This document shows positions 5,835 to 61,875 of a stretch of 64,000 nt of DNA, piece after piece. This DNA comes from Kiritimatiellia bacterium (GTDB lineage: Bacteria > Verrucomicrobiota > Kiritimatiellia > CAIVKH01). Within the stretch, counting starts at the first letter, position 1. Each line of letters opens with the position of its first letter. Location of the stretch: the NCBI GenBank assembly GCA_027493775.1, contig JAOSKE010000001.1:434001-498000 (forward strand), read 5' to 3'. The translations under genes were made by a program, and so were the position numbers. The notes beneath the pieces are model-generated. The model saw only the letters and a program-made list of their open reading frames with translations, was not told the DNA's origin and did not search any database.

Positions 5835-5898
5835 TGCGGCAATGCCTTGATTGGAGCGCCCTGCTTGGGATAGGCTCGCGAGTCTTTTTGAGAACCCC

Positions 5899-6862
5899 AT
5901 GAGAATACTATCTGGAATACAACCTTCGGGCCGACTGCACCTCGGCAATTATTTTGGAATGATGAAACCCGCAATCGCGCTGCAAGAGCAGGGCGAGGCG
6001 TTTTATTTCATCGCGAACTATCACGCGCTGACCACGGTATCGGGACCCGGACGCGCTGCGTCGCTCCACGCTGGATGTTGCGTTGGATTTTCTGGCGTGC
6101 GGGCTGGACCCGACGCGGACGGTGTTTTATCGCCAAAGCGATGTGCCGGAGGTGACGGAGCTGACGTGGCTGTTGTCGGTGGTGACACCGATGGGACTGT
6201 TGGAGCGGAGTCACTCTTTTAAAGATAAGACCTCGCGCGGCATTGCGGCATCACATGGCCTGTTTTCCTACCCGGTTTTGATGGCGGCGGATATTTTGAT
6301 CGTGCAGTCGGACATTGTCCCCGTGGGCCGCGACCAGAAGCAGCACCTGGAGATCACGCGCGACATCGCGATCAAGTTCAACAACCAGTACGGCGAGACC
6401 TTCCGTATCCCCAAGGAGCAAATTCTGGAGGAAGTTGCGGTGGTGCCGGGGTTGGACGGGCAGAAGATGTCCAAGTCCTACAACAACGCGATTGAAATTT
6501 TTGGCGACCCGAAGGAGACGAAGGCGCGGATGATGCGAATCGTCACGGACAGCAAGGGCGTCGCCGATCCGAAAGACCCAGAGCAGTGCAACGTGTTTGC
6601 GCTCTATAAACTTTTTGCGACGCCGGAAGAACGCGACGCAATGGCGGCGCGTTATCGCGAGGGCGGAATGGGCTACGGTGAGGCGAAGAAGGCGCTGCAC
6701 GCCAAGTTTGAGGCCCACTTCGGTCCGCTTCGCGCCAAGCGCGAGGAGTTGGCGAGCAATCCCGATTACGTGGAAGACATTTTGCTGCGCGGCGCGGAAC
6801 GCGCACGCGCGGAGGCGTCCATCACACTCGAACGCGCGCGCAAAGCGGTCGGGCTGGAGTAG
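5899..6862 (+). CDS. trpS: Tryptophanyl-tRNA synthetase (apparent frameshift ~6045)
   Basis: [20 protein letters not shown] (HIGH-like) then, in another frame, [23 protein letters not shown]...[13 protein letters not shown] (KMSKS). Confidence 0.92.
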
Positions 6863-35472: not shown

Positions 35473-36598
35473 TATAGTGGTTCTCTAAAGTTCTGACTTG
35501 ATTGAACAGGTGCGAATGTTGTCAGGCGCTCTGTTGATGGCCCAGCAAAGAGCCTTGTCAATACGGGCAATGAGCGCATCGGCGTCTTTGGCCACGAAGT
35601 CGGTAAACCACTCCGCTTTGATCAAAAGCCACAGCCGCTCAATCGGGTTGAGGTCCGGTGAATACGGGGGCAGATACAACGGCTCGAAGCGACCCCACTG
35701 AAGCCGGGCCGCCTTGTGCCATGAGGCGTTGTCCAGTATGAGAAGTTGGCGCGGACGCGAAGGAGGCGGCAGCCGGTTAGCCTCATCCAGGAACGCCTGA
35801 AAGGTATCGGTGTCCGAATGCGAGAATTCACAGAGGAACGCTTCGCCCGTTCTCGGACATACCATCCCGGTCACGTTCATTCGCAGATGGTCGCCGTTTT
35901 TGGTGACCCGGCCCGTTTTGCCCACCTTGATCCAACGGCGGCGAGGACGAGGATCGCCCTCAATCCCCGTTTCGTCGCCAAACCAAAGCTCTACATCGGG
36001 GTTCTTCATAAGCGCTTGAAGTTCAAGGCAGAATGACTTTCGGGACTCTTCGTCCTGCCGATCCGGCCACGGTTGCGGCACCTTCAGCCGAAAGCCTTGA
36101 TCGTGCAAAAAGCGCATAACCGTTGAATAGGCAACGGGCAGCTTGAGTTCATCCCGCAAATAGCCATGCAGCTTGACCCCGGTCCAGTGGTGTTGATCTG
36201 CCAGTCCGGGTTGCTCAACTAGGTTCACAATCTGCGATACGCGGCCCTGGGGAATCTTGCGCGGCCGACCCGACCGAGCATGTTCAATCAGCCCGTCAAT
36301 GCCGGCTTGATTCCATGCGTGTACCCAGCGAGTGAGGGTGCGCTCGCTTACCGCAAAAAGCTTGGCGACTTGGGAGAAGTCCATCTCCAGCATCAGCGCA
36401 TTTATAGCGTACAGGCGGTCCCGGCTACGCATGGTTGGGGCGGTCGTTATTGCCAGCCGCAGCTCCTCGGGCTTGCAGTTTTCGGGATTTGGCAATGTCT
36501 TCGAGACCGGCATTTCCCAGCTTCATACAGCATCTCCCAAAAATTAAAAGTTTTTTATCACCCTTTTTCAGGACAAAACTTTTGAGAAAGGCTCTATA
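35473..36598 (-). mobile_element. IS630-family insertion sequence with intact transposase
   Basis: Transposase ORF plus imperfect terminal inverted repeats (TATAG..TTCTCTAAAGTTCTGAC / reverse-complement right end TATAG..TTCTCAAAAGTTTTGTC). Confidence 0.8.
35485..36513 (-). CDS. IS630-family transposase (HTH + DDE_3)
   Basis: LWFGDETGIEGD, LLILDNASWHKA, LPPYSPDLNPIERLW. Confidence 0.95.
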   Translation of the reverse strand: MPVSKTLPNPENCKPEELRLAITTAPTMRSRDRLYAINALMLEMDFSQVAKLFAVSERTLTRWVHAWNQAGIDGLIEHARSGRPRKIPQGRVSQIVNLVEQPGLADQHHWTGVKLHGYLRDELKLPVAYSTVMRFLHDQGFRLKVPQPWPDRQDEESRKSFCLELQALMKNPDVELWFGDETGIEGDPRPRRRWIKVGKTGRVTKNGDHLRMNVTGMVCPRTGEAFLCEFSHSDTDTFQAFLDEANRLPPPSRPRQLLILDNASWHKAARLQWGRFEPLYLPPYSPDLNPIERLWLLIKAEWFTDFVAKDADALIARIDKALCWAINRAPDNIRTCSIKSEL

Positions 36599-37275: not shown

Positions 37276-40200
37276 TCATTGCAGTTGCAGCCCTTCCTTG
37301 ACGCCCTTCAGAATCGCGTTCGCCTTCTGGGCTGTCTCTGCCGAGGGCATGGTCTTGCCGTCACCCATCTCAATCCGTATCTGGAAGCGGATCGGCGTGT
37401 TGTTCTTCGTTTTCACCTCCAGCAGCTTGGGCATGATGTCACCCAAGTCCTGAACCTGCGATGGTTCGAGATCGGCCACGGCGACAAGCACGCCTGTCGG
37501 TGGCGGAGTCGGCGGAGGTAGTGTTGTCTTTCCCGCAACCCTGAACTTGGCAAACTGGGCGGACGGAAAGTCGCACGGCCACGCCTGCGATCCGGCATCC
37601 AGAGCTAGGAAGCGCGCCTGAAGCGCGTCGCTGATCACGTCGCGCACCGTTTTCCACGGAAGGGTCTTGCCTGCCTTGACCGACAGGGCCGTGGCAACGG
37701 ATAGACCAGAAGCCACGCTTGCCTTCCATGCATCCTTCAGGTTCTCGGGCAGAATCTCTGCGGCGGCGATGGGCGCAGGCGGAACGCACAGCGTGCCGCT
37801 GGCATTCAGCACGCCTGTGGGGATCGGCTCGCCGAGAATGCTGGCGGGCCCCGAGAGCAACCAGATAGTGCCCTCTGCTACGGCAGTGCCGATGGCCGTC
37901 TCCACGACCGTCTGCTCGGCTTTTGGAATCTGCATGGGCTCCTGGTAGCCGCCCCGGTCAACCTGGACGACCGTCTGGCCGCCGAAGTAGTCGAACACCG
38001 CTTTGACGGCAATCTTGTCAGCAGGCCACAGCCCCGGCAGTTTATTGGGCGCGAGTAGCGCCGGTGCGATATCCGTGAGAACGGCCGTTTCCGGCAGAAC
38101 GAGTTCCATCGCCGGATCGTTGAGCGCGTTCTCGTCCGGGCGGGACATCCACCACGACCGCGACGTTCCGTCCGGCCGCGTCAGACGGAGTACAAACGTG
38201 CCTTGTTCGCACCCGTCCACGAGCGTGTCCAGGATGGCGCTGGCCTTCAGCATCTTCGGCAGATGGGGAAGCTGCGCGAAGGCTCCCGACAGGTCTTTCA
38301 CTCGACGAGCGTTCTCACCCTGTCGCCAGAGGTTGTACGGGCCGTCCGGGAGCAGGGCCTCGGCGGTGATGGCCGTATCCTGGATACGCGACCGGTTGTC
38401 GGCTTTGATCGTGTTGAAGTGCGGCTCTTCCGTCACCGTGATCTTGAATGCTTGGGCCTCGTCCTTCTCGGAGACGGTGACCACGATGGAGTACGCTTGC
38501 TTGACGGCCTCCGGTATGCGCCCCTTCGCCTTGTCGATGTTGATCTGCATCGTCTGGGCGCGGGCCGGATCGACGTTCCCGTCTTTCTGCTGCTTCTTGA
38601 CCTCTTCGCGCACAACCTCCCACGCCAGGTAGTCACGCACACGGGCCATCGCGAGTTCCAGTCCATCCTTTGATGGAGCCAACAGCAGAACGGCGTTTCG
38701 ATAGACGCGCGGCCGATCCGATCCGGTGGTCTCGTCTAGGAACCGCTTGGCCTCTGCGCTGGGCTTGCCTGATTCCGAGGCGGCACTGGGTCCGAGCACC
38801 GCGTAGTGGAACGCGCCATCGTCCTCAATGTCCTTGGGTCGGGTCGGCAGTGTGTGGACGCGGACGCCCGCCGCCGATGCGTTGGCGGTCAGCGCCTTGG
38901 TCCTGCCGATGTCGTCGAGCAGGCGCGCACGCACCGTGTCGTCGGGGATATTCCTCGCCGCGACCGCGTGCATCTGCGTCAGGTTCGGCCGGTTGCCCAG
39001 GCGCCACGTCCCCGGAAGCTGGCCTTCCGAGACGGCCGTGTAGAGGTCGTCGAGCCAGTAACTCGACTGCGACCATCGGGCTAACCCTTTCTCCAACTCA
39101 ATCTTGTCGGGGCGAACGGAGCCCAGGAGTACCGTCAGATCCCGCGTCCGGGCATTCTGGCCGACCGGCTGGGAATGCAGAAAGGTCGCCACGACCGCCT
39201 GCTCCACTTCGCGGTTTTTCAGCCCGACCGACTCGATCTGAATCCTTCGCGCCTGCGAGAACTCGTTGTCCAGGATACCGGTCCACGCCTGCTTCTTGCC
39301 TTCCCACTCCTCGGTATCGGCCACCGCCACCATCTCCCGCAGGGATTCGGAGAGACCGTCCTTGCCCGGCGCGGTCAGGAATACCGCAGGCCCCACCAGC
39401 GGGCTGGTGTCCCACTTCTCCGCCTCGCGCAACGCCAAGGCGAAAGTCCGCAAGACACCGCGTGTCCGCTGAAAACGCGCGAGCTGCGTCCACTTCGAGT
39501 AGAGCACCTCCGTCAGATCGGGATGGAACGGGAAGCTCTTGAGGAACCGTTCCTCGGCTTCCGCGCCCTGTTTCGCCGTCTGCTCGTCCACGGCTGCGAT
39601 ACCCTTCAGCGCCGCCACGACATGCTGACGGAACGCCTCGCGGTCGCCTGAGCGACTCGGGCGTGAAGAACCGGCGGCGGAGCACCTCGGCGACATCCTC
39701 CTTCACAACCGGTTCAACGACTTCCTCGCGTTGGCGTTGGAATACATCCTGGAGCGCAGCATCCACGCCCCGACCGAACGTGTCGGTCATCTTCGGATCG
39801 CTGGCCAGGAGAGAGACAACGACACAACATCTGTCGCTCTTAGTTGCTGCCTGCGACAGGTACTGAAAGAAGTTCCGCAGTCTGTCCAGCCACTTCTTGT
39901 CGTGCGCGACCTTTTCGCGGGCAAACATCAGCACTTCATCAAGCAGGATCAGCACGCCAAGCCCATCCTTGATCGGCATCGCCAACAGTTCCGACAGGAG
40001 GTTCTCGGCAGGAGCCGTTTCGCGTTCCTCCGTCTTGCCGTCCGCGTGCAGCAGCTTGAGGCCCGCGTCGCCCGCCAACTGGTAGGCCAGCACGCTCCAC
40101 GGCTGCTTGAGTGTCCGGATCTTGCCGTTCGGCGAACGCACTTCCATGCCCTTCTCGACGTCGAGCTTGTCGAAGCACAAGCCCGCAATGCGGCATTGGG

Positions 40201-40579
40201 GCGGATTCTGGCCGATTTCCTGCACGAACTCCGCAACGGCGGGCAGGTTGGGCAGATTGTCCGGGTCGTTGACCAGATGCCGGAGCGTGATCAGCGTGTG
40301 CGTCTTGCCGCCGCCGTAGGTCAGCGCAAGCTGACGGACGGCCTTGTCGTTCTTGCCCGCTAGCCGCAGCACTACTTCCTGCACCAGATGGCGCAGGTTG
40401 TACGTGGGGAAGGTCAGAGCGAAGAAGTGCTCCGGATCCTCGTAAATCGGCCGCTTGCGGCGCTGCATCATGACCTCATAGAGGTCGGCAGCGAACATGT
40501 GCATCGGCAACTCGCCGGAACGAAGATCGTCCCGGATCTTCACCACTTCGTGCCAGGGCTTCCACGGTGTCTTCATCAT
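37276..40579 (-). CDS. DUF499 (COG1483) AAA+ ATPase of the defence operon (apparent frameshift ~39652)
   Basis: LTYGGGKTHTLITL (Walker A), GVLILLDEVLMFA (Walker B); ORFs 39098..40579 and 37276..39696 join near FFTPES..SGDREAFRQHVVAALKG; ATGA overlap with SIR2 gene. Confidence 0.85.
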
Positions 40580-41682
40580 TGTTCTCCAGTCGGCTGACTT
40601 GCCTGAATCGGCTTGACTTCTTCAAAAGGGTCTTCCTCGTCGGGGAACACCTCTGTAAGCGTTTTGATTGAGAGTTCTGTGTCAAAGAACGGCTTTGCCT
40701 TTGCCGTCCTGAAGATCACTTGATCAGTGTCGTTCGATGTCTTCAGTCTCGATGTGATTTCGTCACGATGGCCGTCGGTGTCATTCCACATTCCAACGGC
40801 CAGGATCCTCTTGCCCGGATCGGAAGCCAATGCCTGTCCAAGGATGCCGTTGATGTGCTCGTCTGCAAAGCTGTACCCGACAGTGACGATGAGCCGCGCG
40901 GATGTAATCGTCCACCGCCTAAGCTCGTAGGCGAAGAACAGGAAGGGATCGACATACTGCAGCTTGTACGTCGTGCCGAAGATGATCTGGATATGCTTTG
41001 GCTCAATCGGTGCGTCCTGATATACGAGGTGATTGTTGTCGTCGCGTGTCCAGTCGATGGAACCATGTAGCTTATACAGGTAGACGTTGGGTGCCTCGGA
41101 ATCGGCTGACTCGTCGAACACTCGCCAGTCCCAACGCTCGCCATCGCCGAACCCGCGTTCAACCCGAAGATCCTGGCACCCCTTTTCAACGCACAGATCG
41201 TAGTTCAGCGTGAAGACCCTCATCGGGTGCTGGTACTCCTGCTGGAACCGTGCAAGCCCACCGAAGTAAGCCGCAGAGCGGTCGTATTTCAGCTGTACCC
41301 AACTGTCACGAAGCTCCTTCACGATCTTCTGTCGCAGTTCGCTTACCTTGGCGAGATTGCTGCCCGCGACTTCTGGCAGCTTCGGAGCCCACGAACCGAT
41401 GAATGGGAAAAGCGGGTGCTCGTCGCCTCGCAGCAGGTCGTCAAGCGTGCCAACCAGATCCTCGATGTTGAACTTCGTATGGTCATACATACCGCGCAAG
41501 TTGTGACCATACATGATCGCGCTCTTCAGGTAGTTGTAGAGCTTGCTGTACCCCTTCCAGTCGGAATGATCACGGAGGAGCCCCTCAAGTTTCTCGATCA
41601 TCTGGGCGGATGCCGGTATGCCAGCCTCCACGCTGGCACCCGCGCCCAGCAGAAACACGACTTCGTCCTTCTTCAATATCAT
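40576..41682 (-). CDS. SIR2-like NAD+-binding effector
   Basis: FLLGAGASVEAGIPAS, VFTLNYDLCVEKGC, VYLYKLHGSIDW, LIVTVGYSFADEHINGIL. Confidence 0.9.
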   Translation of the reverse strand: MILKKDEVVFLLGAGASVEAGIPASAQMIEKLEGLLRDHSDWKGYSKLYNYLKSAIMYGHNLRGMYDHTKFNIEDLVGTLDDLLRGDEHPLFPFIGSWAPKLPEVAGSNLAKVSELRQKIVKELRDSWVQLKYDRSAAYFGGLARFQQEYQHPMRVFTLNYDLCVEKGCQDLRVERGFGDGERWDWRVFDESADSEAPNVYLYKLHGSIDWTRDDNNHLVYQDAPIEPKHIQIIFGTTYKLQYVDPFLFFAYELRRWTITSARLIVTVGYSFADEHINGILGQALASDPGKRILAVGMWNDTDGHRDEITSRLKTSNDTDQVIFRTAKAKPFFDTELSIKTLTEVFPDEEDPFEEVKPIQASQPTGEQ

Positions 41683-41692
41683 CGTGACACTC

Positions 41693-43636
41693 CTATAAGA
41701 ACCAAGGCGGCAGCCCGTCGAACCTCAGATCAGGAAAACCGTACTCGTCAAACCGGCCAACGTAGTCGGCGATCAGCTTTGCATAGTAGACGGATACCGG
41801 CATGGACTTCGAGTTGAACCCCCGCCAATTTGCCCCGGACAGATTCAGTGCATCCTGGAGATAGTCGGTCAGAACAGCGTCGTCTATGCCCGTGTGTGGA
41901 TAGGTGAGTTCCACATGCATGGGACCGCCAATGCGGCTTCGTATTGTGGGGTTGTGATACTGGAGACCCTCGAACCAGACGAGCCGCTCCCGCTGCGACA
42001 GAGAGATGTAGGTGCTCTCGTATGGGACCTTGCTGTTGTTCCACGTTGCGAATCCAAAAAAGCGATTGCGGTCGTTGAACTTCAATGCCACGAGATCATG
42101 TTGGTGGTTGTCCTCGTCCCCATACTGATCAAGCGCCGCATGGATGGCCTTCATCTCGGCTCGACGAAGCCTGAACGCCGTGTGAATGACAAAACGGTCG
42201 TACTGATCCCTATAGTCGTTCAGAACCTGTTTGATGCTTTCAGTCAGCCCGTTCAGGTATGAGCCCTCATCTCGCTCATCAATCAATGTGCGGATGCTGT
42301 CATAGATCCCGGTTGAATCGGTCAGAACGGAGTATGCGTAGTAGCGGTTGATGGCACCGTTCGACGACCTGCGGTGGCACTGGCCGACGCCGATGATCAG
42401 GCACTTCTGATGTTGCGGTTGAACCATCCACGGCACCCCGCCCAGCTTGGAGAACACGCCAAGAGCTATGTTTGCAATCGACCACTTCATAGACTCCCGG
42501 TCCCGCAACTTCCGTAAGCTTACGAGCTGAGTAGGAAAGCCATGCGAGAGGAAGCAGTGCTTCAATTGATAGTAGGCTTGCTTACCAGCGGGGTCGGGGT
42601 CGAGGCGTGACCAAGGGAACAGAATCAGCGGCAGCGTTGTCCGCGATCCGATCTGGCCCTTCATCCTGGCGATTCCATCATCCAGGGAGGCCTTGTCAAA
42701 CCCGTCAAGGGGAACTCCTATCACATGCTCCGTTCCCAAGGAGAACTGAAACATATCGTTCATTCCCTTGAACGTGCCGTATGTATCCCCACGCAGGGCC
42801 CTGTAAAGGTCATGCGAAAGCGGCTTGTCCGCAGGCCGGTACATGAAGCATATCAAGGAGTCGTTGTTCAGTGGGCGAAGCGGCCCGCGCGATTTGACGC
42901 CCATGAACTGGGACGAAGCCGTGGTGTTGCCCGCAAAAACGTATGTTTTTGTCCTGAGACGTTCTGCGGGAAGCCTTGCCATTCGTAGGTCTACGTCGAT
43001 CCGTGTCCCATCTGGTAAGGTGATCGGAAAGAGTTGAGCTTGGTAGGTTTTCAGGAATCGCTCAATCATGCCGTATTGATCGGCGTAGTAGTCCTTGTTC
43101 TCGCCGAAGGACTGATCGAGGCTGAGGCTCCTCTGTTGAACGCGACGGTCAAATGCGACTCCCGGCGCAACTCGAAAATGGTGCCCAACGAGAAAGCCCA
43201 ACAGCTTCTCGCTTCTCAGGTAATACGGCTGCAACTCAACGGTAGATTGACCCAGTGCATCCTGGTCCAGCACAAAGGCTATGCGGTCGCCAAAATGGGA
43301 ATTGCACAGGTACGAATCCGGGGGAAGGGCCTCCGCCGACTTTGCGTTGAGCAGGTTGGCGATATACCAGAGGGTGAGATACCAGTTGGTCGTGGAGTCA
43401 CACGCAAACGCATCGAAGCCGTCCCTCTTCGCCAAGGAGACATCGAAAGGCACAAACTCATCCTCGGATGCGATGGAGGGCGGGAGCCTATATTGTTTGA
43501 CTTCAGGCGGCAGCGGTTTTTGGTCACCACGTTCGGCGGCGCGACGGTACACCGTCATGTTGAACGCCTGCGGGGTGATCGGCATGAGATTGAGCGCGAT
43601 GAACTCCCGGCTATTTGGTGATCGCGAGCTAGGCAT
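41693..43636 (-). CDS. Prokaryotic Argonaute (long type, predicted catalytically inactive)
   Basis: MID/PIWI signatures: YYQLKHCFLSHGFPTQLVSLRKL, ANIALGVFSKLGGVPWMV, LIIGVGQCHRR, YDRFVIHTAFRLRRAEMKAI, ANWRGFNSKSMPVSVYYAKLIADYVG; GGAGG 8 nt upstream of ATG at 43636. Confidence 0.9.
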   Translation of the reverse strand: MPSSRSPNSREFIALNLMPITPQAFNMTVYRRAAERGDQKPLPPEVKQYRLPPSIASEDEFVPFDVSLAKRDGFDAFACDSTTNWYLTLWYIANLLNAKSAEALPPDSYLCNSHFGDRIAFVLDQDALGQSTVELQPYYLRSEKLLGFLVGHHFRVAPGVAFDRRVQQRSLSLDQSFGENKDYYADQYGMIERFLKTYQAQLFPITLPDGTRIDVDLRMARLPAERLRTKTYVFAGNTTASSQFMGVKSRGPLRPLNNDSLICFMYRPADKPLSHDLYRALRGDTYGTFKGMNDMFQFSLGTEHVIGVPLDGFDKASLDDGIARMKGQIGSRTTLPLILFPWSRLDPDPAGKQAYYQLKHCFLSHGFPTQLVSLRKLRDRESMKWSIANIALGVFSKLGGVPWMVQPQHQKCLIIGVGQCHRRSSNGAINRYYAYSVLTDSTGIYDSIRTLIDERDEGSYLNGLTESIKQVLNDYRDQYDRFVIHTAFRLRRAEMKAIHAALDQYGDEDNHQHDLVALKFNDRNRFFGFATWNNSKVPYESTYISLSQRERLVWFEGLQYHNPTIRSRIGGPMHVELTYPHTGIDDAVLTDYLQDALNLSGANWRGFNSKSMPVSVYYAKLIADYVGRFDEYGFPDLRFDGLPPWFL

Positions 43637-43675
43637 CGAAAAGCCTCCCATACTGATCTGCTATCGCCGCGCCGC

Positions 43676-45196
43676 TCATGGTTTACCTTTCGGGCTTGGC
43701 AGAAGAGCAGTTATGCCTCTATCCAACAGCAGATTCGGCAGGGATCGGGATTCGCCCAACAGCTCCGTCGTGCTAGTCTTGCGCTTCATCCTGATCGTGA
43801 TCTCCTGCCCATCGAACATGAGTTCTCCGGTCAGCCCCTTTGCCCGGATCGTGCAGTGATCCGCGTTTGCCGGGTAGGTCACGGAAATGAGGTCCGGATC
43901 GTCAATGTCCTCAATCGCGTCAATGATGTCTTCGATAGGCATGCTGTCAGAAAGCTGAAAGACGATCCGGTCAAACAGATCATCGAACACTTCGGCGAAT
44001 GCCTCTGTATCCAGGACATCCGGGTCTCGGATATCAGTCACCTCCGTCGCGATTTCGTATTGGCTCGGATCGTCGTTGTCGATGTCCAGCGTAATGTTTA
44101 CCGTGAACTGCGGGGTCATTATGGTCACGGCCCCATCATCCTCGCTCAACTCGAGGTAGCGACGACGGTAGCTGAAGTGCGTCTTGATGGCGTGATGGAT
44201 GGCTTCCGATGCCTCCCGCAGGTCGTCAGCCCCGACCTGCTGAACAAACCCGCGGGTCGCACTGCACACGTTGTCCGGTACGCGGTGGTGGCGCTTGAAT
44301 CCCTTCAGCATCTTCACCGACCCATTGACAAATCCGAAAAACGACGCGCGCGCCAGATTGACGACCGTCGACTTCGACTTCGCTTTCCGGCGAGCCAGTA
44401 CGTCACCAAGGTCGGCCAGGATGAACTCACGCGACATGTCGCCCCACACACGAGGGTTCTGAGTAGCGGTGCCGGTGACTGTGTGCCGAAGGGTCCGAGG
44501 GACCTCCGCGCTCAGGTAGTCACGCAAAGATGAAGCGGTCAGGAATCGCTTCCTTTCGAGTGCTTTGGGCTCCTCTCCACGGTACGCCTGGATGACATGG
44601 TGGCTCCATATTCCGTGTTTGAGCGGATTGCTGGGATACGACTTCTCGTCCAACCGACAGGAGGCAAACGCCATGTGGTACTCAGATTCGCTGCAAAAGG
44701 CGGCGAACTCGTCATCCATCATCTCTTCCGTCAACAGTCCTCGCATGCTGTCGTCGATCTTAAACCCACTGTGACAGCAGTCGAGCAGGATAACGGCCTT
44801 CCGGGCCTTGGATGATCGGACCATCTCGAAGATCGTCTGAAGCCGGATGCTGGTAGCAGGCAAGTCCGACAGGACCGTGTCATGGCAAGTAATGAAGTTG
44901 TGTCCGTTCTCGGCAAACCCATGGCCCGCGTAGAACAGCATCAGTTCGTCCTCGGGGCGAAGACGGCGGCAGAGAGTGCGGACGGCGGATTCGATCCGCG
45001 TCTTCGTCGCTGATGCACTGAGCATCACCTCGGTATTGGCGGCGGGGAAGCCCACCTCCTGTATGGACGCAGCGAGTTCGGTGGCAGCGTTCTCAGCATA
45101 GATGACCTTCGAAATACGCTTGTCATGGTATGCCTCGACAGCCACCAGAAGCGCGTACTTTTCGCCCGATAAGGGCACAACCGACTTCGTCTTCAT
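43676..45196 (-). CDS. Caspase-like (peptidase C14/metacaspase) protein with novel C-terminal region
   Basis: LMLFYAGHGFAENGHNF (catalytic His) and AVILLDCCHSGFKID (catalytic Cys); ATGA overlap with methylase. Confidence 0.9.
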   Translation of the reverse strand: MKTKSVVPLSGEKYALLVAVEAYHDKRISKVIYAENAATELAASIQEVGFPAANTEVMLSASATKTRIESAVRTLCRRLRPEDELMLFYAGHGFAENGHNFITCHDTVLSDLPATSIRLQTIFEMVRSSKARKAVILLDCCHSGFKIDDSMRGLLTEEMMDDEFAAFCSESEYHMAFASCRLDEKSYPSNPLKHGIWSHHVIQAYRGEEPKALERKRFLTASSLRDYLSAEVPRTLRHTVTGTATQNPRVWGDMSREFILADLGDVLARRKAKSKSTVVNLARASFFGFVNGSVKMLKGFKRHHRVPDNVCSATRGFVQQVGADDLREASEAIHHAIKTHFSYRRRYLELSEDDGAVTIMTPQFTVNITLDIDNDDPSQYEIATEVTDIRDPDVLDTEAFAEVFDDLFDRIVFQLSDSMPIEDIIDAIEDIDDPDLISVTYPANADHCTIRAKGLTGELMFDGQEITIRMKRKTSTTELLGESRSLPNLLLDRGITALLPSPKGKP

Positions 45197-48100
45197 AGTT
45201 CTTTGCCCCCCTCCAATTCCTCTTTCGAGAATAGGCCGGGGCCTTCATCCCGCATCGCGCCGCGTGCGCCGACGTGATTGCTGATGGACTCCAAAAGCGA
45301 CCGCTCCTCGCTCCCGTGCGGCGACAGCTCGATGAGAGACTGGAGCAGCCGCTTGAATAGCTCCTGCCGCCGTAAACCGTTGCCATCCAGGTAGCCGTCC
45401 ACCTTGGACAGATCGCCCGCCTTCCAAAGATGCATCAGGCAATGCACGCGGTCGATCAGAGGCACAGGCTTGCCGCCAGGGGCCTCATAGCCCAGCGACT
45501 TGCCCTTGCGTTGCGCCCAGGTCCTGAGCTTCACCTTGCTCCCGGAATCCTTTTCCTCGGCGTCAGACTCTGCGTCAGCGTCAGACTCTTCCTTGTCCTC
45601 GTCGTCCTTCGACTTGCCCTTCGTGAAACTGATCAGGTCCCACGTCTGGGCCAGTTCTCGGTCCGAGATGCCGCACGAGATGGCGTACAGGATGCACGCG
45701 CCCGCCGGAGCCTCGTCCATGCCGAAATCGTGCCGGTGGAGAAGATAGTACGCCGTCGGTTCATCCAACCGGTCGGCGGCGGCGGAATCGGCGTCGCCAT
45801 CCTTGTCGCCGGACAGTACACGACCGACCACGAAGTCCACCACAATGCGGCGGACATGCGTGAGAAACTCGCTGACCGTCATCGGACCGGGCTCGTTGGC
45901 CTTTTTTTACCACCGGGTGCTTGCTGTATGCCTCCATCGCCGGGCCAGTGGCAGCCCAGACAAAGTCTGGCCCGCGTATGCCTGCATCCCAGTACTCACG
46001 CAAGCGCTCTCGGATGTTCCGCCGCATGTCGTCAATCACCTGATTGTCCCATCCAGGACGGGCAGTTGGTGGGCGTTTCTTGCAAACAAGCCACACGGAA
46101 GATGCCAACGCAGCAGCGGATAAACCTCTTGTTCGATTCGGCATCTCCGTTTGTATCGGCCAACTCCCCTCCACCACAAAACCGGCGCGAATGATCGCCG
46201 AGACCAACGTCTCCCAAGCATCAGGATATTTGTGCGCGAAAACCACTACCATACGCCCATCAGGATTCAGAGCCTGGCAGCAGGTTTGAAACGTTCGAGC
46301 CATGCCATCCTCATAAGCGGCCTTAGATTTCGCCCGATCGCCATCATGACGACTGGCATCGTCAATCAGCTCGCCATCGCCCTTGCCGTGATCCCATTTG
46401 GGCGATAGCGTATCGGCAAAAATTCTGTCTATTTGCGGCGTTAAACCGTGTAGTGATCGCTTCAGCCAGAGATAGAAGAAATCCATAAGATCCGAATAGG
46501 GAATGGCATCGTAGTAGGGGGATCGGTGACAATGGCATCGAGACCTTGTGAACTCGCGAGCGTCGAAGATTGGTTGATAACGTTGGCCGGCGGAGCGTTT
46601 TGGAAAGCCAGTAGGCCGTGCTCTACATACTCGGCGACCCATTCGAGGTTGGCGATATAGTTTCCCGTGGTGAAGGAAAAAGGATTCCCCTCACAGAAAT
46701 CCCATGTAATGGGAAGCGCGAAACGCGTGAAAGTTCCCTGAAGCTTTGTGTAGCCGTTATCCCACCGGCACACATTCGACTGCCTGTCTGCTATACGATC
46801 TACCCCGATTGATAAAAATGCCACCACGGCTTCGCGCCACTCTGCGGGATAGTTGACAAGAGTTGCAATGGTGATGCAACCGTCCCGGTTGCCATTTATC
46901 GCAAGCGGGACGCTTGCGCCACTCTTATCTTGCCAGGCCGCCCTCGTCCACTTGACAAACGTCCCCAGCGCCAGCAGTTGGCGCGGCGTGAAGAGCTTTT
47001 TCCATTGGTCGAAGCCATAAAGCGGAACACGAAAGCCCAGTGCCTCTGCGCTTGGAAGTGGCTCCTCCAGGATTCCGAAGGGTATCTGGGCGAAAACCGT
47101 GGACAGGACTTCCTGTGCCGCATCGGCTTGGTGAAATTCGTGATCCGTCGGCAGACGGTATTCCTTACCGCTCTGGCCGTCCACGACGACGGAAGTCATC
47201 AGTGAAGTAAGGCGACCAGCCTTACCCTCGACCCGAATATCCTCCATTGTCATTATGGTGCCGCAACAGGGACATTTCGCCCCAGATCGGGACATAGTAC
47301 CTGCGGCAATGCGTTTATCGTGCTCGCGTTTCTGCGCCGCATTACCGCCCTTGGCGGGTACATTTGACTCGATTGCGAATACAACGCTCGTCCTCTCGCT
47401 GTTCGGCTCCATAGCCAAGAGAATGCGCTTCCTGTCCTTCTTGCAGAGCCACCGCGTTTTGAGGAGGGGGATCGTTGCCCGGCAATTTTTGCACTTGACG
47501 GACCTCGCCCACAGGTGCGCCACGGTGGGCTTAGCCACCCAGCGCGGGTTCCTCTTGTCAGCGAGGTATTCCTTGCTGAACTTCTTGTTCAGCGTATCGA
47601 TGTCCGGCGTGCCGTCATCCTTGAGCGGCACGAGCTGCATCGGCCGCTTCTCGTATGCCTTGGCGGAAGCAGTGTCCTTGGCGGTCAGTTTCAGAGGCTC
47701 GAAGTCGGCATAGGTCGGATAGAACGCCGCCAGTTCGCGCCGAGCCCGATTGAGAACCCACTGACCCCAGGCACGGACATGCCACGCCAGATCGGCCTTG
47801 GGGGCGCGGCCGGAGTCCTCTTTCACCATCGAGGGAAACATCCCCTCCTCAGCAGCAACCTGCTTTTTCGTTTTCTTGGTGCGACCGACCAAATGAGGAT
47901 GCGCCTTGTAGAAGGCGTTCATAAACTCCTCGTCGTGGAGAATAAAATCTGGCAACGGGTGTGTTTTGCCCGCCAGCTTTTGCGGATATTCCAACGTGCA
48001 TTTCAGGATGAACCACGCCACCGGGTTGATGTCCACGGCGGTCGCCTCACACCCGAGGCGCATGGCCTCAAGCGGAATCGCGCCGCCGCCTGCAAACGGA

Positions 48101-48504
48101 TCGAGTACTTTCGGTGCCCGACCACCGTATGCTTTCCTGATCTCCTGGCGGAACCATTCCAGATCGGCCTTGTTCTCCGTCTCCCGCCCCCAGTGCAAAA
48201 TGCCGCCCTCGGTCTCTTCCTTCTCCCGCTCGACGACGCTGCCGTCCGGCATCTTCTTGCGCTCGATATTCTTGACGACCTTACCGCCAATTTTTTCACA
48301 CAACTCTTGACGTTTCTCCGGCGTGCCGGGGTCGGGCAGCAGTGTAGCGATGAGTGCCGCTCGGCATGCCGCCAACGGTCGCCGCGCCGGCCAGATGTGC
48401 AGGGTCGAGATATGCCCATGCCGCACGTTCTTCTCGTGGACCGAGTCCAGCGAAGCCTGCTTCAGCGGGAAGGCGTGTTCGATAAGTCTGGGGAAATCGG
48501 TCAT
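45193..48504 (-). CDS. DUF1156 (COG1743) Zn-ribbon adenine-specific DNA methylase (apparent frameshifts ~46519 and ~45906)
   Basis: IEHAFPLKQASLDSVHEKNVRHGHISTLHIWPARRPLAACRAALIATLLPDPG N-terminus; DPFAGGGAIPLEAMRLGCEATAVDINPVA; DPPYYDAIPYSDLMDFFYLW restored by one C; CKNC/CPCC clusters. Confidence 0.92.
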
Positions 48505-49337
48505 TGGCCCTTCTTCTTTCGCAATGCTCTCAGGAGCAGATCACCAACAACGCCCATGACCTGCGTCGCATGACGAGCTTCTTCTGCTGTGACCGTCGGT
48601 AGCCAGGGGCGACCGTGGCCGGTTCCTTGTTTGTTTCGTAACGTATTGACGGCGCACGCGGCTTCATAGAGCGCTCGCTGAAGTCGATGCTGAGGAGGTT
48701 CGCCATTCGCCGCAGCGTCGGCAGGCGTTTTTAGATCGAGTGCTACGAATGCCTGGCCCAGGGCTGCGGAAAAGTTGTGCGGCGGATTGGCGTTGTTCCA
48801 GCATTCCCGAAGCACATACGCCGCAATCGCCTCCAGAATATCCTTCCCTGTGCCGACGACCAACGCAGCATCCTCGGCTCCCTTTTGCGCGCGTCGCACG
48901 TATCCCGCCAAAGCTTCCGTGAGTTCTGTGCCTTCGAGAGCATCCAGGACCGCAGGCCGGAGCTCACCATCTGACGTCAGGATGAAGCCTTCCGACGCCA
49001 TCACCTCGCGGAGGTTGGCAATCGCGTCCTGGCCCACATGATTGGGAGAATCCGCCCGAAATCCTCCATGAGTGCGGACCATCGCAAGCAGTTGTCCGAC
49101 AAAACCTCGGCCATTCTCATGGGAATGCTCGATAGCCCAACCCAGCACCGCGCGAACCCGCTTCAGTTTGCCTACGGTCTGACCTTGTGAGTTGGGGTCG
49201 CCCGGAGTGAGCTTCCATTGCGTGATACAGAACAGGATGTCAGAGTGACTCGGATCGCGTCGATCTGTTTGGGCATCATCAACGAGGCGTGCCACGGCGA
49301 ACGCTATCGCATCATTGAGCGGTGGGCGGTGTGTCAT
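48501..49337 (-). CDS. Abortive-infection (Abi_C-like) protein
   Basis: AVNTLRNKQGTGHGRPWLPTVTAEEARHATQVMGVVGDLLL matches the Abi_C RNKxGxGHG signature; ATGA overlaps on both sides. Confidence 0.75.
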   Translation of the reverse strand: MTHRPPLNDAIAFAVARLVDDAQTDRRDPSHSDILFCITQWKLTPGDPNSQGQTVGKLKRVRAVLGWAIEHSHENGRGFVGQLLAMVRTHGGFRADSPNHVGQDAIANLREVMASEGFILTSDGELRPAVLDALEGTELTEALAGYVRRAQKGAEDAALVVGTGKDILEAIAAYVLRECWNNANPPHNFSAALGQAFVALDLKTPADAAANGEPPQHRLQRALYEAACAVNTLRNKQGTGHGRPWLPTVTAEEARHATQVMGVVGDLLLRALRKKKGQ

Positions 49338-51278
49338 ACGTTCACCCCCGTCGCGGCCAAGAACTGCTGTCCGATCACCGCCGCCGGACATTGCGGGCCG
49401 AGTTCGTGAATGAATTGGGATGCCATCGTCTTGGCCGTCGTGCCCACGGTGCGTGTCGTGCGGGCACGCATCCTAAACGCCACAGCGGCGGGCAGGCCGG
49501 TCACTGATGAGAGGACAAGCGTGTGCCGGGTGCGGGTTATGGCCACATAGAACAGCCGCCTCTGCTCCTCCATCGCCCGCTGCTGCTCTTGCTGCGTGGC
49601 GTCGGTGTCGATGCTGGGGATCAAGCCCTGGAGGCAGGCGCATACGACAACTAGGTCGGCGGTCAGCCCCTTGGACTTGTGAAGGCTCATGACGCGGATG
49701 TAGTCCACGTCGGTGGGCATTTCAGGCTGGGACACGTGCCGCCGCATCGTGTCGCCGAGCTTCCGGGGACCAAAGTCGTCTTCCTCAAGAGTTGCCGCGA
49801 TCTCGATAAACGGAGCGGCCCACGGTTCACCTGCCGGGAACACGGCATCTACCAGAGGCTGCCCGGTCACGCCGTTAAGTTTGACGATCTGGACTTGGAG
49901 CGCCTGGAAACGGGTGACGATGTGCACGGTGTACGGGAGCGCCAGGGCCCCACCGGCCAGCTTCTCCAACGCCTGCCACGGACTGTCGCCACTGCTCTCA
50001 CAGTGCGTCCGCAAGCGTGCCCACCCAGCATCGGCCAGGGAGTTATTGCCGAAGCCGCACCAGCAGCGCAGCGCCACGCGATCCTCCGGGTTGGCCAAGA
50101 GGATCAGCAATGCCATTGCCTGCTGCGCCCGCGACTCGTTGATGTTCTTGGGATCGCCGTCCAGCAGCTCCTCGCTGAAGAAGCTGTGCGCCGGCACGCC
50201 TAGGCCGTTGAGCTGGTCACGCACCAGGTAGCCGAATTCACGACGAGGCGCGAGCACCAGTACGTTGCTAGGCTCGACCGCCCCTGCATCCACGCGAGCC
50301 TTGATGAAGGCAGCGATTCCAGCCGCTTCGTCCTGCATGTTCGGCCACTGCACGGAGTGAATCTCGCCCACGGGGTTGCCGGGCATGGGTTGAAGCTGTC
50401 GGTTGCTGCGGGATGCATTGTGCGAAATCAGCGCGTTGGCCATCGCCACGACGTCGTGCGGGCATCGACGGCACTGGTCGAGGCCCGCCTCCTCGGTGTT
50501 CGGATGTGTGCCGGGAAACTCGACGATGCCCTCGGGGTGAGCGTGCTTGAACGAGTAGATGGACTGGTCCTCGTCACCCACGACCACGAGGTTGCCGTTG
50601 GCCAGAAGATCGACGAGGTGCTGCTCGGCGCGATTGAGGTCTTGGTATTCATCCACCAGCAAGTGGTCGAACATGGTGCGGTACGGCGACTGTGGATTAT
50701 TGCGCAGGTACTTGATGCCCTCGGGGATCAACTCGCCAATCAGAATGGCCTCGTGGAATCGCAGCCACGCCAACAGTGCTGCCTGGTACGCCTGATCCGC
50801 AGCATCGTGCGGCCATCCGGGCTGATGGTGCTGAAGGCGAAGCCCAGGCGGCCGAGAAGGCCAGGAGTTTCTTGCCGCAGACACGAATGCCTCCAAGCCC
50901 GCCCTTGCAGAGGTCCTGAAGGAGGAACCGCTCCTCGAATCGCAGCAGCGGCCGAGGCACGCGACCTGTTACCTCCAAGACGTCCTGAGCCGACAGCATC
51001 GAGAAGCAGAACCCGTGGACGGTCTGGGTGAGAATGTCCTCCGCGCCACTGACCCCAAGCCGTGAAATGGCACGCGTGATATCTTCCGCCGCCGTTCGCG
51101 TAAAGGTGCAGGCGAGGATGCGCTCCGGGATGGCCTGGCCCACTTCAAGCAAGCGAGTCAGGCGGCGCATCAGCGCAAACGTCTTCCCCGTGCCAGGTCC
51201 AGCGACAACGCAGAGCGGTGAGTTGGGCGTTGCCGCGATCTGAAGTGCTTGACCTTGAAGTCCGTCGTTCCAGGGCAT
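49334..51278 (-). CDS. UvrD/PcrA-like superfamily 1 helicase (apparent frameshift ~50845)
   Basis: VVAGPGTGKTFALMRRLTRLL, LACTFTRTAAEDI, HLLVDEYQDLNRAEQHLVDLL, VVGDEDQSIYSFKHA, RRLFYVAITRTRHTLVLS. Confidence 0.9.
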
Positions 51279-54200
51279 TATGCGTCCCCCTGTGCATCAA
51301 GAATCTGCCTTGCGCTGACCAGAACGCTTCCCTTGGCCTTAGCCAGCAGTGCTCCGAAGGGATCCTGGACGCGGGCAAGCCGTGGGTTGGACGTGGCGCA
51401 GTTGTAGACGGCATAGAGCCAGTAGTCCTGCCGTATGTTGCATGCCTTGGCCCACTCGTTGGCGGACACCTCGATGTCGCCGGTCGTAGCGCGGCCCTTG
51501 ACCTCGATGGATCGTTTCTCGTTGCCGGGGCGAATGGAAAGCAGATCGAAACCTGGATTGTCCGGCAGCCCGGCAAGGCGGGCGAGATCGGGCGTGTGGA
51601 CGTCCAGGACCTTAGCTCCGGCGGCTTCCTCGAACGCCTGCGCTAATTGCATGGCGACCATCTCGACGTTCGTGTTGTGCTGCTCGATATCCGCCGGATC
51701 GGAAGACGGCACCACGAGCGCGTGGGCTACGAAGGTGACCTCGTCGGGCGCAATCAGATCGGGTTCCCGGTGCAGAACGGCCAGGGCGTTTTGACGGCGG
51801 GTGGCCAGTTCGCGCTGCTGGCGTTTGACCTCTTCCAGCGCCTCCATCGCCTTGCGGTTGCCGCTGCGGGCCTTGTCGGAGTGCTTGGCGCGGGCTACGG
51901 CTAGTTCGGTCTCCTGGTAGTCGAATCCCCGGCGGATGAATCCTTCGCGCTCTGGGATGCTGTCGGCGAGGGCCTTCTTGCGGTCGAGGGCCAATTCACG
52001 GGCGATTCGCTCAGCCAGATAGGCGCGGGCGAGTTCTTTCTGTTCGGAAGCGACCACGGCCAGCCGCTGGGCCGACGCGGGAAGCCCTTGGCCACCCTTC
52101 AGAAGTAGGAGATGTTCGACCGGGCACATGCATATCTCGGAACCCTCTTGCTGGCGGATCCCGACGAGGCGGCAGTCGAGTATTTCTTCCTGAGCGAGAT
52201 CGGGCAGTTCGGAGTCAGCCCGGCGAACCACGGAGAGAAGCGCCATGTGGAAGAGGTAGGGCTTCGTGGCCGAAGGATCGATGAAGACCGCGCCCCGCTT
52301 GCCGATGTCGGCCAGCCGTTCGGTTGCCAGGGCACGGAACCGCTCGAACACCGGTTCGCCGGGATGGAGCCAGATGACATCCTTGCGGTCCGATGGGCGC
52401 GCCACCGAGAAATTCTCCCTGCATTTCTCCGGGTACAGTTCGAGGACGGGGAAGAGCGGGTCCATTGCGCCGAAACGGAGGGGCCGGAGAGAAAACACGC
52501 CTTCCATGTCGCCCTCGATCTCGATGTCCATAAGCGGGGCGGCTTGCTGGATGTACTGGCGGGTGTAGCCGGGGAGCAGGCGGAAGTAGACTTCCTGTTC
52601 TATGTTGGCGCGAAGGCGCGGGAGGTCTTTCGCCACGTCACCGCCGGTTCCGTAGAGAGACTTCTCGCGCTTGGCCAGGGCTTCGATCTGTTCCTTGGTC
52701 AGGCGTCCGTCGAGTTGCCGGGCCACGGCATCGGCGTCCTCGGTGACGGCCAGTTCCATGTATCGCTTGATGGAGACGCCTTCAGAAGATGCGGCCGATG
52801 CAGTCGAAGACCTTGTCGGACTGGAGTTCCTTCCGAATCTTCTCTAGCTTGTCGAGCAGCACCTTGAGAACCTTGCCTTCGCGGGTCGAGGGGGCGACTA
52901 GGTTCGTGATGACAACCGGGTCGTGCTTCTGGCCGTAGCGGTGGATGCGGCCCATGCGTTGTTCAAGACGCGCGGGGTTCCACGGCACGTCATAGTTGAT
53001 CATGATCCAGCAGAACTGGAGGTTGATGCCTTCGCCCGCGGCGTCCGTACAGATCAGGAACCGTGCGCCGCCCTGGTCGAGGGGCTTGCGGAACCGGTCC
53101 ACCTCTTCCTCGCGCTGGAGATACTGCATGCCGCCGTGAATCTGCGCGATCTGGCCGGTGTAGCCCATGCCGCTAAGCCGCCGCACGAGAAACTCCAGCG
53201 TATCCCGGTGCTCAGTGAACACGATGAACTTCTCGCCACTGAACCGAGAGTCGGTCAGAATCTCACGGAGCTTGTCGAACTTCGACTCGTGGCCGCCGTC
53301 GTGAACCTTGCGGGCAAGATCGAGTAGTTCCTTGACCTGCTCCTTCTCGGCCAATAGATCGGTGAGGGACGCCGCGACGACGCCCTGGAGAAGACGCTCT
53401 TCGGCGGCCTCGTGGGCTTCGCCGTGTTCTTCGTCGCCCTCGTCGTCCGCGCCCGTGGTGTCGAGCAGATCGTCCTCGTGCAACCTGGCCTGGAGGGTCA
53501 GCATCTGTTCGGTCGTGATCTTGCCGTCCTGAATGTCGTCGATCAGGGTGTTCAGCTTCTCCATGCGGCGCTCGAACGACCGGAGGAGCGCGTAGGTCGA
53601 GCTGGCCAGACGGCGCTGGAAGACGCTCATGGCAAGGCGCGCGGCTTCCCGGTTCAGCAGCTTGGCCTTGTTGTAGACGAAGCGCAGGTAGTCGGTGGTC
53701 TCGTCGTAGAGCTTCTGCTCGCTCACATTGCCCTGGGTGAGTTCGTACCCGAGCGTGTCGGACATGCGCTTCGGGTAGAGCGGCCGACCGTCCAGATAGA
53801 CCATCTCCTCCTTGGTGCGTCGGATGAAGTGCGCCTGCCGTTGTTCGGGAGGGTACTCGTCGAACGCATCCGGTGTCGCAAGCATCTCGGGTTCGAGAAG
53901 CCGCCAGATGGCATAATACGGATAGTCCTTGCCCATGTGCGGGGTGGCGGTCAGGAGAAGAAGATGATGGGCGCTCCAGCCCAGCCGCCAGTGGCCGTTC
54001 TGGGATTGTACGCCCGCGATGGCCTCGGCGAGAGAGTATCGGTCGGTCTTTCGGATGCGCAAATCGTTGCCCCGGTCTGCGGCCAGCTTGTGCGCCTCGT
54101 CGAAGATAACGAGGTCGTATGGCGCCACAGTCGTCTCCCGAAGACGGGCGAACATGCGAGGGCTGGCCAGCGTATCCACGCTAATGATCACGCGGTCTCC

Positions 54201-54848
54201 GGCATCCCCCTGGAATGGGTTGTCCGCACGCGCATCCGCCCCCGTGATGATCCGAAATGGAAGGTTGAACAGCGTCAGCAGCTCGCGACGCCAGTTGCCC
54301 ACCAGACCGGCAGGGGCGACGATCAGAATCCGGCGCAGCAGCCTCCGGGAGAGCATCTCCCGGATGTAGAGGCCGGACATGATGGTTTTGCCCGCGCCCG
54401 CGTCATCGGCCAGCAGGAAGCGCAGCCGGGGCTGCTTGAGCATGTGGTCGTAGACGGCGATGCGCTGGTGCGGAAGGGGGTCGATGCTGGATATCTCGGT
54501 GGCGAAGGTCGGGTTCATCAGGTGGCCGAGGGTCAGACGTTCGCCTTCGGCCAGAACTTTCACGATGTCCGGCTGAGCAGTGAAGTCCAGGATCGCGGGC
54601 GGAATTCGTTGCGGCTTGCTGTAGGTGGCTGACTCCTCGGCCATGCGCATCTCGAGCTGCTGGAGCTGGCTCCAGTAGAGCCGGGACGGCTTGGTCTGCT
54701 TGTTCTCCCACCGGTTAACGGTGGCGAACGAGACGCCCAAGCTGTCTGCCAGCGACTGCTGGGTCAGACCGATATCCCCGCGGAAGCGCTTGATGCGCTC
54801 GGCGTAGTCATCGCCCGGCTTCGGCCCTATCACATAGCGTTCTGTCAT
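51278..54848 (-). CDS. SNF2-family helicase with N-terminal XRE HTH and C-terminal DUF3883-like domain (apparent frameshift ~52787)
   Basis: IGLTQQSLADSLGVSFATVNRWENKQTKPS HTH; LADDAGAGKTIMSGLYIREML, FDEAHKL, LLLTATPHMGKDY; GRI-SEGVSIKRYMELAV restored by one base; PGFDLLSIRPGNEKRSIEVKGRATTGDIEVSANEWAKA. Confidence 0.88.
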
Positions 54849-54894
54849 GTTCGCGTACGGTCTCCACAATAGTTATCAACGAAAATACTGCCCC

Positions 54895-54923
54895 ACCATA
54901 ACAAATGCTATGTTCTATGTCAA
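54895..54923 (-). promoter_or_regulatory. Sigma70-type promoter of the defence operon, overlapping dyad
   Basis: On minus strand TTGACA - 17 bp - TATGGT; dyad CATA-N8-TATG at 54897-54912 overlaps -10/spacer. Confidence 0.6.
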
Positions 54924-55234: not shown

Positions 55235-56020
55235 TGTCTCACTGCTGTCCAAAACGCGCGAAAGTCTGACGAAAGAGGGGCCCTATTCCCTGAAAAAAGC
55301 ATCGTTGGGTCGTTTGCGCAAAACCGATCCCCCCTTTTATGAAGGACATGGGTTCTGCTGTCCAAGATCGAGTTCCCAGAACTCGGCTTGAACGAAAGGG
55401 GGCGGAAGCGGCGGTGTTTCATAGGGACGCTCAATCCAAACCCACAAGTCCCGGTAGGTGAAAAGGTTCAGCCGCAGCAGCGCCACGAGGTTGGAGAGGT
55501 GCCAGCCGCATTTGGATTTGAACTGCAGGTACTTGATCAGGAGTATGGCGATCAATGCTGTCCAAATCTGGATATACACCGCGTTGGCGGAGGTGCCGAC
55601 GAAGGTCTTGATGCGGAGATTCTGCTTGAGGTCCCTGAAGAACAGTTCGATCTGCCAGCGGGCTTTGTAGATCTGGGCGATGGTGGATGCGGCCAGATGC
55701 AGATTGTTGGTGAGAATCACCAGTTCCTCCTGTTTGTCTTCCCGCCAGACCGTGATCCGGCGGTACCGCCTTTTGACCCGCCGCCCAGCCTGAAAGACGT
55801 GAAACTCTCCGATCTCATCGGCGCGGACGGGTGAGTCGGCAGGTACCCCGCGCACGTGGTGCGAAAAGTCATTCCGGCTAAAAAGGGAAAGCCGTTGGCT
55901 GAACAGTCTGGCCTTGTGTGCGCTCATCTTGCGGGGTCTCCTGGTCAGGCTTGTTGGATATTTTCACCTTCAGCCTACCTCCAGACCCCGTTTCTAAAAA
56001 CTTGTTTTGGACACTACTGC
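55235..56020 (-). mobile_element. Truncated IS4-family element, copy 1
   Basis: GTCCAAAAC / GTTTTGGAC termini; ORF 55337..55927 encodes only the C-terminal part of an IS4-type transposase (TIAQIYKARWQIELFFRDLKQNLRIKTFVGTS). Confidence 0.75.
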
Positions 56021-61075: not shown

Positions 61076-61095
61076 CGCAACAGTATATTGGAGGC

Positions 61096-61875
61096 ACTGC
61101 TGTCCAAAACGCGCGAAAGTCTGTCGAAAGATGGGCCTTATTCCCTGAAAAAAGCATCGTTGGGTCGTTTGCGCAAAACCGATCCCCCCCTTTATGAAGA
61201 ACATGGGTTCTGCTGTCCAAGATCGAGTTCCCGGAACTCGGCTTGAACGAAGGGGGCGGAAGCGGCGGTGTTTCATAGGGACGCTCAATCCAAACCCACA
61301 AGTCCCGGTAGGTGAAAAGGTTCAGCCGCAGCAGCGCCACGAGGTTGGAGAGGTGCCAGCCGCATTTGGATTTGAACTGCAGGTACTTGATCAGGAGTAT
61401 GGCGATCAATGCTGTCCAAATCTGGATATACACCGCGTTGGCGGAGGTGCCGACGAAGGTCTTGATGCGGAGATTCTGCTTGAGGTCCTTGAAGAACAGT
61501 TCGATCTGCCAGCGGGCTTTGTAGATCTGGGCGATGGTGGATGCGGCCAGATGCAGATTGTTGGTGAGAATCACCAGTTCCTCCTGTTTGTCTTCCCGCC
61601 AGACCGTGATCCGGCGGTACCGCCTTTTGATCCGCCGCCCAGCCTGAAAGACGTGAAACTCTCCGATCTCATCGGCGCGCACGGGTGAGTCGGCAGGCAC
61701 CTCGCGCACGTGGTGCGAAAAGTCATTCCGGCTGAAAAGGGAAAGCCGTTGGCTGAACAGACTGGCCTTGTGTGCGCTCATCTTGCGGGGTCTCCTGGTC
61801 AGGCTTGTTGGATATTTTCACCTTCAGCTTACCTCCAGACCCCGTTTCTAAAAACTTGTTTTGGACACTACTGCT
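61096..61875 (-). mobile_element. Truncated IS4-family element, copy 2 (same orientation as copy 1)
   Basis: Near-identical to 55235..56020, same ends; ORF 61041..61781 runs over the left end. Confidence 0.75.

Follow-up and report, generated by a model that had tools for sequence, protein, structure and literature searches.

The stretch of DNA considered here is a window of 64,000 nucleotides from a Kiritimatiellia bacterium (contig JAOSKE010000001.1, positions 434,001 to 498,000), which contains a defence operon on its minus strand. Between positions 37276 and 54848 of the window, open reading frames (ORFs) and profile searches define a single run of eight co-oriented gene products, confirming the products, order and strand given earlier by a reading of the sequence alone (the sequence-only reading). 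There are three core genes, which PADLOC recognises as a helicase (HmaA), a methylase (HmaB) and an ATPase (HmaC). HmaA (51278..54848) comprises an XRE helix-turn-helix, an SNF2 helicase and a C-terminal, PD-(D/E)XK-like NOV_C/DUF3883 nuclease-like domain (PADLOC HmaA, E=8.6e-133; Pfam Helicase_C, SNF2, HTH_3 and NOV_C); its Walker A, DEAH and GFD..EVK motifs are all present, and the gene is split by one frameshift. HmaB (45193..48504; PADLOC HmaB, E=5e-78; PF06634) is a DUF1156 N6-adenine methyltransferase with DPFAGGGA as motif I, and HmaC (37276..40579; PADLOC HmaC, E=2e-43; PF04465) is a DUF499 AAA+ ATPase with GGGKT as its Walker A motif.

The helicase-methylase-ATPase operon was named Hma in 2021, was found in 26 phyla and often lies near Septu (PMC8565338). 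A survey from 2026, which re-describes Hma-type systems as DUF499-centred BREX-related (BR) systems, notes back-up effectors of the nuclease type within or next to the BR core loci (PMC12839542). The window operon resembles Hma, i.e., Type-1 BR, in its SNF2 helicase with C-terminal nuclease-like domain, its DUF1156 N6-methylase, its DUF499 ATPase, and the A-B-C order and orientation of these genes on one strand of one operon, but differs in having five additional genes, placed as cargo in the two gaps between the core genes. The core genes are the already known system, Hma. Type-3 BR systems have PglZ and iSTAND genes in their core locus; profile searches found no PglZ match among the operon proteins (no search was aimed at iSTAND). 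The words caspase, Argonaute and SIR2 are absent from the text of the BR survey (PMC12839542), and no published account was found of a caspase, an Argonaute and a SIR2 protein inside such a module, in keeping with the sequence-only reading, which knew of no described system joining all of the families with a caspase.

The gap between HmaA and HmaB (slot A-B) holds a UvrD-family helicase gene (49334..51278; Pfam UvrD-helicase and UvrD_C) and a gene for an Abi_C-domain protein (48501..49337; PF14355, E=9e-11). The gap between HmaB and HmaC (slot B-C) holds genes for a caspase-like protease (43676..45196; PF00656, E=2e-12), a long-B Argonaute (pAgo; 41693..43651; PADLOC pAgo_II, E=2.6e-197) and a SIR2-domain protein (40576..41682; PADLOC Aga_SIR2, E=1.5e-123), the predicted NADase partner of the Argonaute. 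Both gaps are also found in relatives of the operon. In a survey of 39 loci with HmaB relatives, where genes were called as the longest non-overlapping ORFs, the HmaA-HmaB gap exceeds 300 bp in 30 of the 35 loci in which it is measurable, and the HmaB-HmaC gap does so in 24 of 30. The contents of the slots are varied, mostly co-oriented, and differ from locus to locus: OLD-type ATPase pairs (HEC-01), DUF1016 nucleases (PDC-S02), Schlafen-type (AlbA_2-like) proteins and the Septu protein PtuB occur, as do PsyrT, PifA, HEC-02, DarT, a DarG macrodomain and others. A UvrD gene is also present in slot A-B of one further locus (L127), and an Abi_C gene upstream of HmaB, with 68% DNA identity to that of the window, in another (L016, from Sumerlaeota).

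The nearest chassis to that of the window is the locus L123. Its HmaC shares 89% protein identity and 83% DNA identity with the window HmaC, and the two are sisters in the HmaC tree with a support of 99 (all trees reported here are quick trees). In a blastn comparison, the match between the two loci ends at 45253 (81%), when HmaB still has 60 bp to run, and restarts at 40568 (83%), 12 bp inside HmaC; the exchangeable segment in between (40569..45252, minus strand) has no DNA similarity to L123 and is bounded by homology at both flanks. Where the window has caspase, pAgo and SIR2, L123 has three unrelated genes, which encode an OLD-type ATPase, a small product and a DUF1016 protein. Because near-identical chassis bear quite different cargo, the inner genes are regarded as exchangeable cargo. 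As a description of genome architecture, the more general idea of a restriction chassis whose abortive cassettes can be exchanged is well supported. For slot A-B, a partial second copy of the HmaB 5′ end lies just upstream of extra cargo in two loci (L016:3099-3413 and L123:6395-6826), a possible trace of cassette entry into this slot. Among the relatives, the Hma operon at L172:1943-14538 has very long cargo genes, with products of 1316 and 1028 aa, and short overlaps at several of its junctions.

The genes of the window operon are closely joined, as five of the seven junctions overlap (are coupled) and two are spaced. The junction between the HmaA helicase and UvrD reads TAATG, and ATGA is found at the four others that overlap: UvrD/Abi_C, where the start codon lies on the UvrD stop, Abi_C/HmaB, HmaB/caspase and SIR2/HmaC. 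The caspase-pAgo spacer is 24 or 39 nt in length, according to the pAgo ATG that is chosen, and the pAgo-SIR2 spacer is 10 nt. The sequence-only reading, which gave about 40 and about 10 nt for these spacers, counted one coupled junction too many, six instead of five. Reading of the sequence between caspase and pAgo reveals a mini-ORF of 16 codons (43629..43679, minus strand), which opens with an ATGA that overlaps the caspase stop codon and terminates at the second candidate ATG of pAgo; possibly, this is a coupling device. What the earlier account called one co-oriented, largely coupled defence operon, joining a methylase-ATPase-helicase module to abortive-type effectors, is indeed what the window contains.

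That account went further, in seeing a single composite of eight components, in which methylase, helicases and ATPase would sense DNA and caspase, pAgo and SIR2 would execute suicide. Such an integrated system would fit a single operon with overlapping junctions and all genes in one orientation, but the set of eight genes occurs in no other locus, chassis that are nearly identical hold other cargo, and at nearly every one of some 85 loci the pAgo-SIR2 pair occurs without any Hma gene. In particular, retention of caspase-pAgo-SIR2 between DUF1156 and DUF499 genes elsewhere, which the sequence-only reading had named as its own test, was seen in none of the approximately 85 pAgo loci and none of the 39 Hma loci, the pAgo-SIR2 pair without caspase being there once, in L016. 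The integrated system is accordingly considered very improbable, and among the loci surveyed only this genome has the trio of caspase, pAgo and SIR2.

The caspase has the His/Cys dyad of the C14 family: His92 and Cys141 align with those of MALT1 and other caspases, the nearest solved relatives. The N-terminal half of the protein gave a predicted model of moderate confidence only, and residues 281-499 form a confidently modelled C-terminal domain, for which a fold search returned nothing below E=0.001. This C-terminal part (residues 273-506; window 43676-44380) matches an uncharacterised stand-alone protein of about 230 aa, often single-copy, which is found in many genomes of the phylum. Thus, compared with the bacterial caspase-domain defence proteins of the PADLOC 'caspase' group, the protein shares the C14 fold and the dyad, but differs in having a C-terminal domain of about 230 aa from an uncharacterised family, without a confident structural match, and in its location in an Hma operon. 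There is a full-length relative in a genome of the same class (L165), which is without the catalytic Cys and lies outside any Hma operon, and a more distant full-length relative on an Agrobacterium plasmid (L169). A scan of viral contigs with the caspase found no relatives, and no Hma or pAgo locus in either survey other than the window has a caspase in an Hma slot.

The Argonaute and its neighbour have the features of a BPAS pair. The nearest solved relatives of the pAgo are EcAgo (23wq), AfAgo and RsAgo. In the alignment its catalytic residues are lost, with GVGQCH (residues 421-426) replacing the first catalytic Asp motif, and the protein is a long-B pAgo without the catalytic tetrad. The SIR2_2 effector is encoded directly downstream and keeps the NAD-site residues, Asn160 and His206, which are invariant in six relatives. 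In a genome-wide scan, SIR2 lies directly downstream of pAgo in nearly all of the best 80 of 91 loci; a scan of viral contigs with the pAgo alignment found no relatives. In Escherichia coli, BPAS (GbBPAS) leads to NAD+ depletion when an invading plasmid is present (PMC10620215). The window pair is like the pairs described there in consisting of an inactive long-B pAgo followed by a SIR2_2 protein with NAD-site Asn and His; unlike those pairs, which form simple operons of two to three genes (PMC10620215), it is nested in a modification-restriction operon, with a caspase in front.

The same pair occupies the same slot once more, between HmaB and HmaC in L016, where there is no caspase. The order in L016 is the end of HmaA, two uncharacterised genes, the HmaB 5′ fragment, Abi_C, DarT, a fusion of a DarG macrodomain with HmaB, pAgo, SIR2 and HmaC. 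Within this locus (L016:4243-9942), a DarT toxin gene accompanies an HmaB that carries a DarG-type macrodomain at its N-terminus, so that a toxin-antitoxin pair is built into the methylase. The HmaC and HmaB trees place L016 and the window in different supported groups (99), and the pAgo tree joins L016 with L013 (96), a locus in which pAgo-SIR2 sits in a different helicase-methylase operon. Because HmaC and HmaB of L016 group with other loci and its pAgo groups with that of L013, it is likely, as the simplest reading, that pAgo-SIR2 entered slot B-C twice, separately in the window and in L016; transfer of the pair between chassis is also possible. A single inherited pAgo insertion common to both was considered and rejected, as their nearest supported kin differ in the HmaC, HmaB and pAgo trees.

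Hma is one of several kinds of operon in which the pair is lodged. In 28 of 57 eligible pAgo-SIR2 loci, a restriction or BREX gene lies in the same operon run, and in six there are such genes on both sides. The queries for these genes came partly from the tested loci; when the loci that supplied queries were left out, 17 of 46 shared a run with a restriction-like gene, and restriction-like genes accounted for 37 of 182 operon genes, compared with 16 of the 382 genes that these loci have outside the operons (odds ratio 5.8, p=4e-9). Methylases in pAgo operons were identified by protein comparison instead of by a motif search, which missed true HsdM because the HsdM motifs deviate. Mapped onto the tree, the restriction link is scattered and requires 18 changes, at least 11 of which are forced by well-supported branches. 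The operons that contain the pair, or to which it is immediately adjacent, include type I operons in the order hsdM-hsdS-pAgo-SIR2-...-hsdR (L022, L036, L037, L055), type III Mod-Res (L064, L067, L068, L074), Eco57I-like type II (L041, L043, L052) and type ISP (L073). A BREX run of PglX-PglZ-BrxL is followed within 11 nt by pAgo-SIR2 at L077:1907-13000; a PLD/SNF2 helicase and an Eco57I-like methylase accompany the pair in L013, and an SNF2 helicase and a methylase in L047. The pair is placed between modification and restriction genes in the window and L016 (HmaB|HmaC), and in the type I loci L036, L037, L055 and L057. An earlier survey noted HsdS, a methyltransferase and type III endonucleases among the proteins of pAgo operons in general (PMC6299218); no account that presents BPAS as nested cargo was found in the literature.

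These observations bear on whether the cargo merely shares a promoter with its host. Independent defence cassettes may have landed in the Hma operon as a good landing site, without sharing its function; this would suit the variation of cargo between chassis, the occurrence of BPAS alone on plasmids and chromosomes, and the activity of BPAS in E. coli in the absence of a restriction partner (PMC10620215). Landing by chance would not lead one to expect insertions at gene ends with orientation and start/stop overlaps preserved, nor a BPAS-restriction link that arose many times and that, in about half of the testable loci, brings the pair into the operon of a restriction or BREX gene, in several cases between the modification and the restriction gene. 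Such passive nesting is a serious alternative, but rated as rather doubtful.

At the other extreme is a direct functional tie. The prrC gene of type I loci lies between hsdS and hsdR. PrrC is a suicide nuclease, silenced by the restriction enzyme of its locus and released when phage inhibits that enzyme (PMC2610378). The BPAS loci resemble the EcoprrI type I locus in that a latent suicide effector is housed within a restriction operon, and several of those of type I have it in the hsdS/hsdR gap, but effector, sensor and chassis are different, and silencing by the restriction enzyme has been shown only for PrrC (PMC2610378). Restriction-type complexes (Hma, type I, type III, ISP, BREX) might directly restrain Argonaute-SIR2, and here the caspase too, so that the pair would stand guard and fire once a phage has put restriction out of action. 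This seems unlikely; were it true, inactive Argonautes would form a general counter-anti-restriction layer.

It can also be asked whether the operon is still functional. The assembly contains five frameshifts in it: one in HmaA (near 52.76-52.79 kb), one in UvrD (within 50697-50896), two in HmaB (within 46462-46642 and 45761-45882) and one in HmaC (within 39098-39696). The indels repaired in the sequence-only reading are in this sense real. Transposase genes flank the operon on both sides. An IS630-type transposase (35485..36513, minus strand; PF13358, E=2e-31) lies just past its 3′ end, at the island edge, and a remnant of an IS4-type transposase (55337..55927, minus strand; PF01609) lies upstream. 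A decaying, non-functional remnant, with broken genes and insertion sequences at its edges, could look like this. However, two other genes of the genome are broken in the same way: trpS (tryptophanyl-tRNA synthetase, single-copy and essential; window 5851-6860) is in two halves in different frames, and rpoB is likewise split between frames, rpoC being whole. The density of breaks is about equal (five in the 17.6 kb of the operon, two in approximately 8.7 kb of control genes), the fragments flanking each break still match one conserved, motif-bearing family, and no frameshift interrupts Abi_C, caspase, pAgo or SIR2. Given the same fault in trpS and rpoB, the frameshifts are most likely assembly errors, the operon probably being intact in the organism, and decay is very improbable. 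The assembly indels have a bearing on any reading of genes in this genome.

Beyond the upstream end of the operon, the short IS4-type element is present as two near-identical direct copies (window 55240-55930 and 61095-61781), and the 56-61 kb segment between them encodes a secreted-looking protein of 1107 aa. Rfam matched no RNA family within 34-62 kb of the window.

Taken together, the operon is probably best described as an Hma chassis in which two slots, HmaA|HmaB and HmaB|HmaC, carry co-expressed abortive back-up cassettes as cargo; the functional half of this description, i.e., that the cassettes act as back-up to restriction, is plausible. From what is known of the families, HmaB would mark self DNA, while HmaA and HmaC would scan DNA and restrict what is unmarked, as the first line of defence. 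The cargo genes would be co-expressed back-up layers, each triggered independently. Invader DNA that has escaped restriction would be recognised by the RNA-guided Argonaute, which would then release SIR2, and the freed SIR2 would drain NAD+, thereby aborting the infection. The caspase would be a separate protease effector, probably sensing via its C-terminal domain, and Abi_C and UvrD may contribute additional layers. Placed between modification and restriction genes, as prrC is in type I loci, a cassette would be kept with the primary system and balanced against it.

Several points weigh against this description. The caspase in slot B-C is known from one genome only, and four of the eight operon genes are frameshifted in the assembly. 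In about half of the testable loci BPAS stands alone, so it can do without a restriction partner, and because defence genes tend to cluster anyway, sharing an operon need not imply shared control. The sigma70-like promoter that the sequence-only reading placed before the first gene does exist, directly before HmaA (54895..54923, minus strand; TTGACA-17-TATGGT with an extended TG, 10/12 matches), but is suggestive only, because a scan of 19.7 kb contains three such promoter-like sites, compared with 5.8 expected by chance.

The chassis-and-cassette description makes a testable rule of an apparent one-off, namely that Hma/BR operons have two defined slots in which effectors are swapped cleanly. 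At least six kinds of operon (restriction types I, II, III and ISP, BREX, and Hma) repeatedly house the Argonaute-SIR2 pair, and a link of BPAS to restriction would help to explain when the pair fires and how it is restrained in healthy cells. For anyone seeking new abortive effectors, the slots also offer a practical starting point, an example being the caspase with its uncharacterised C-terminal domain.

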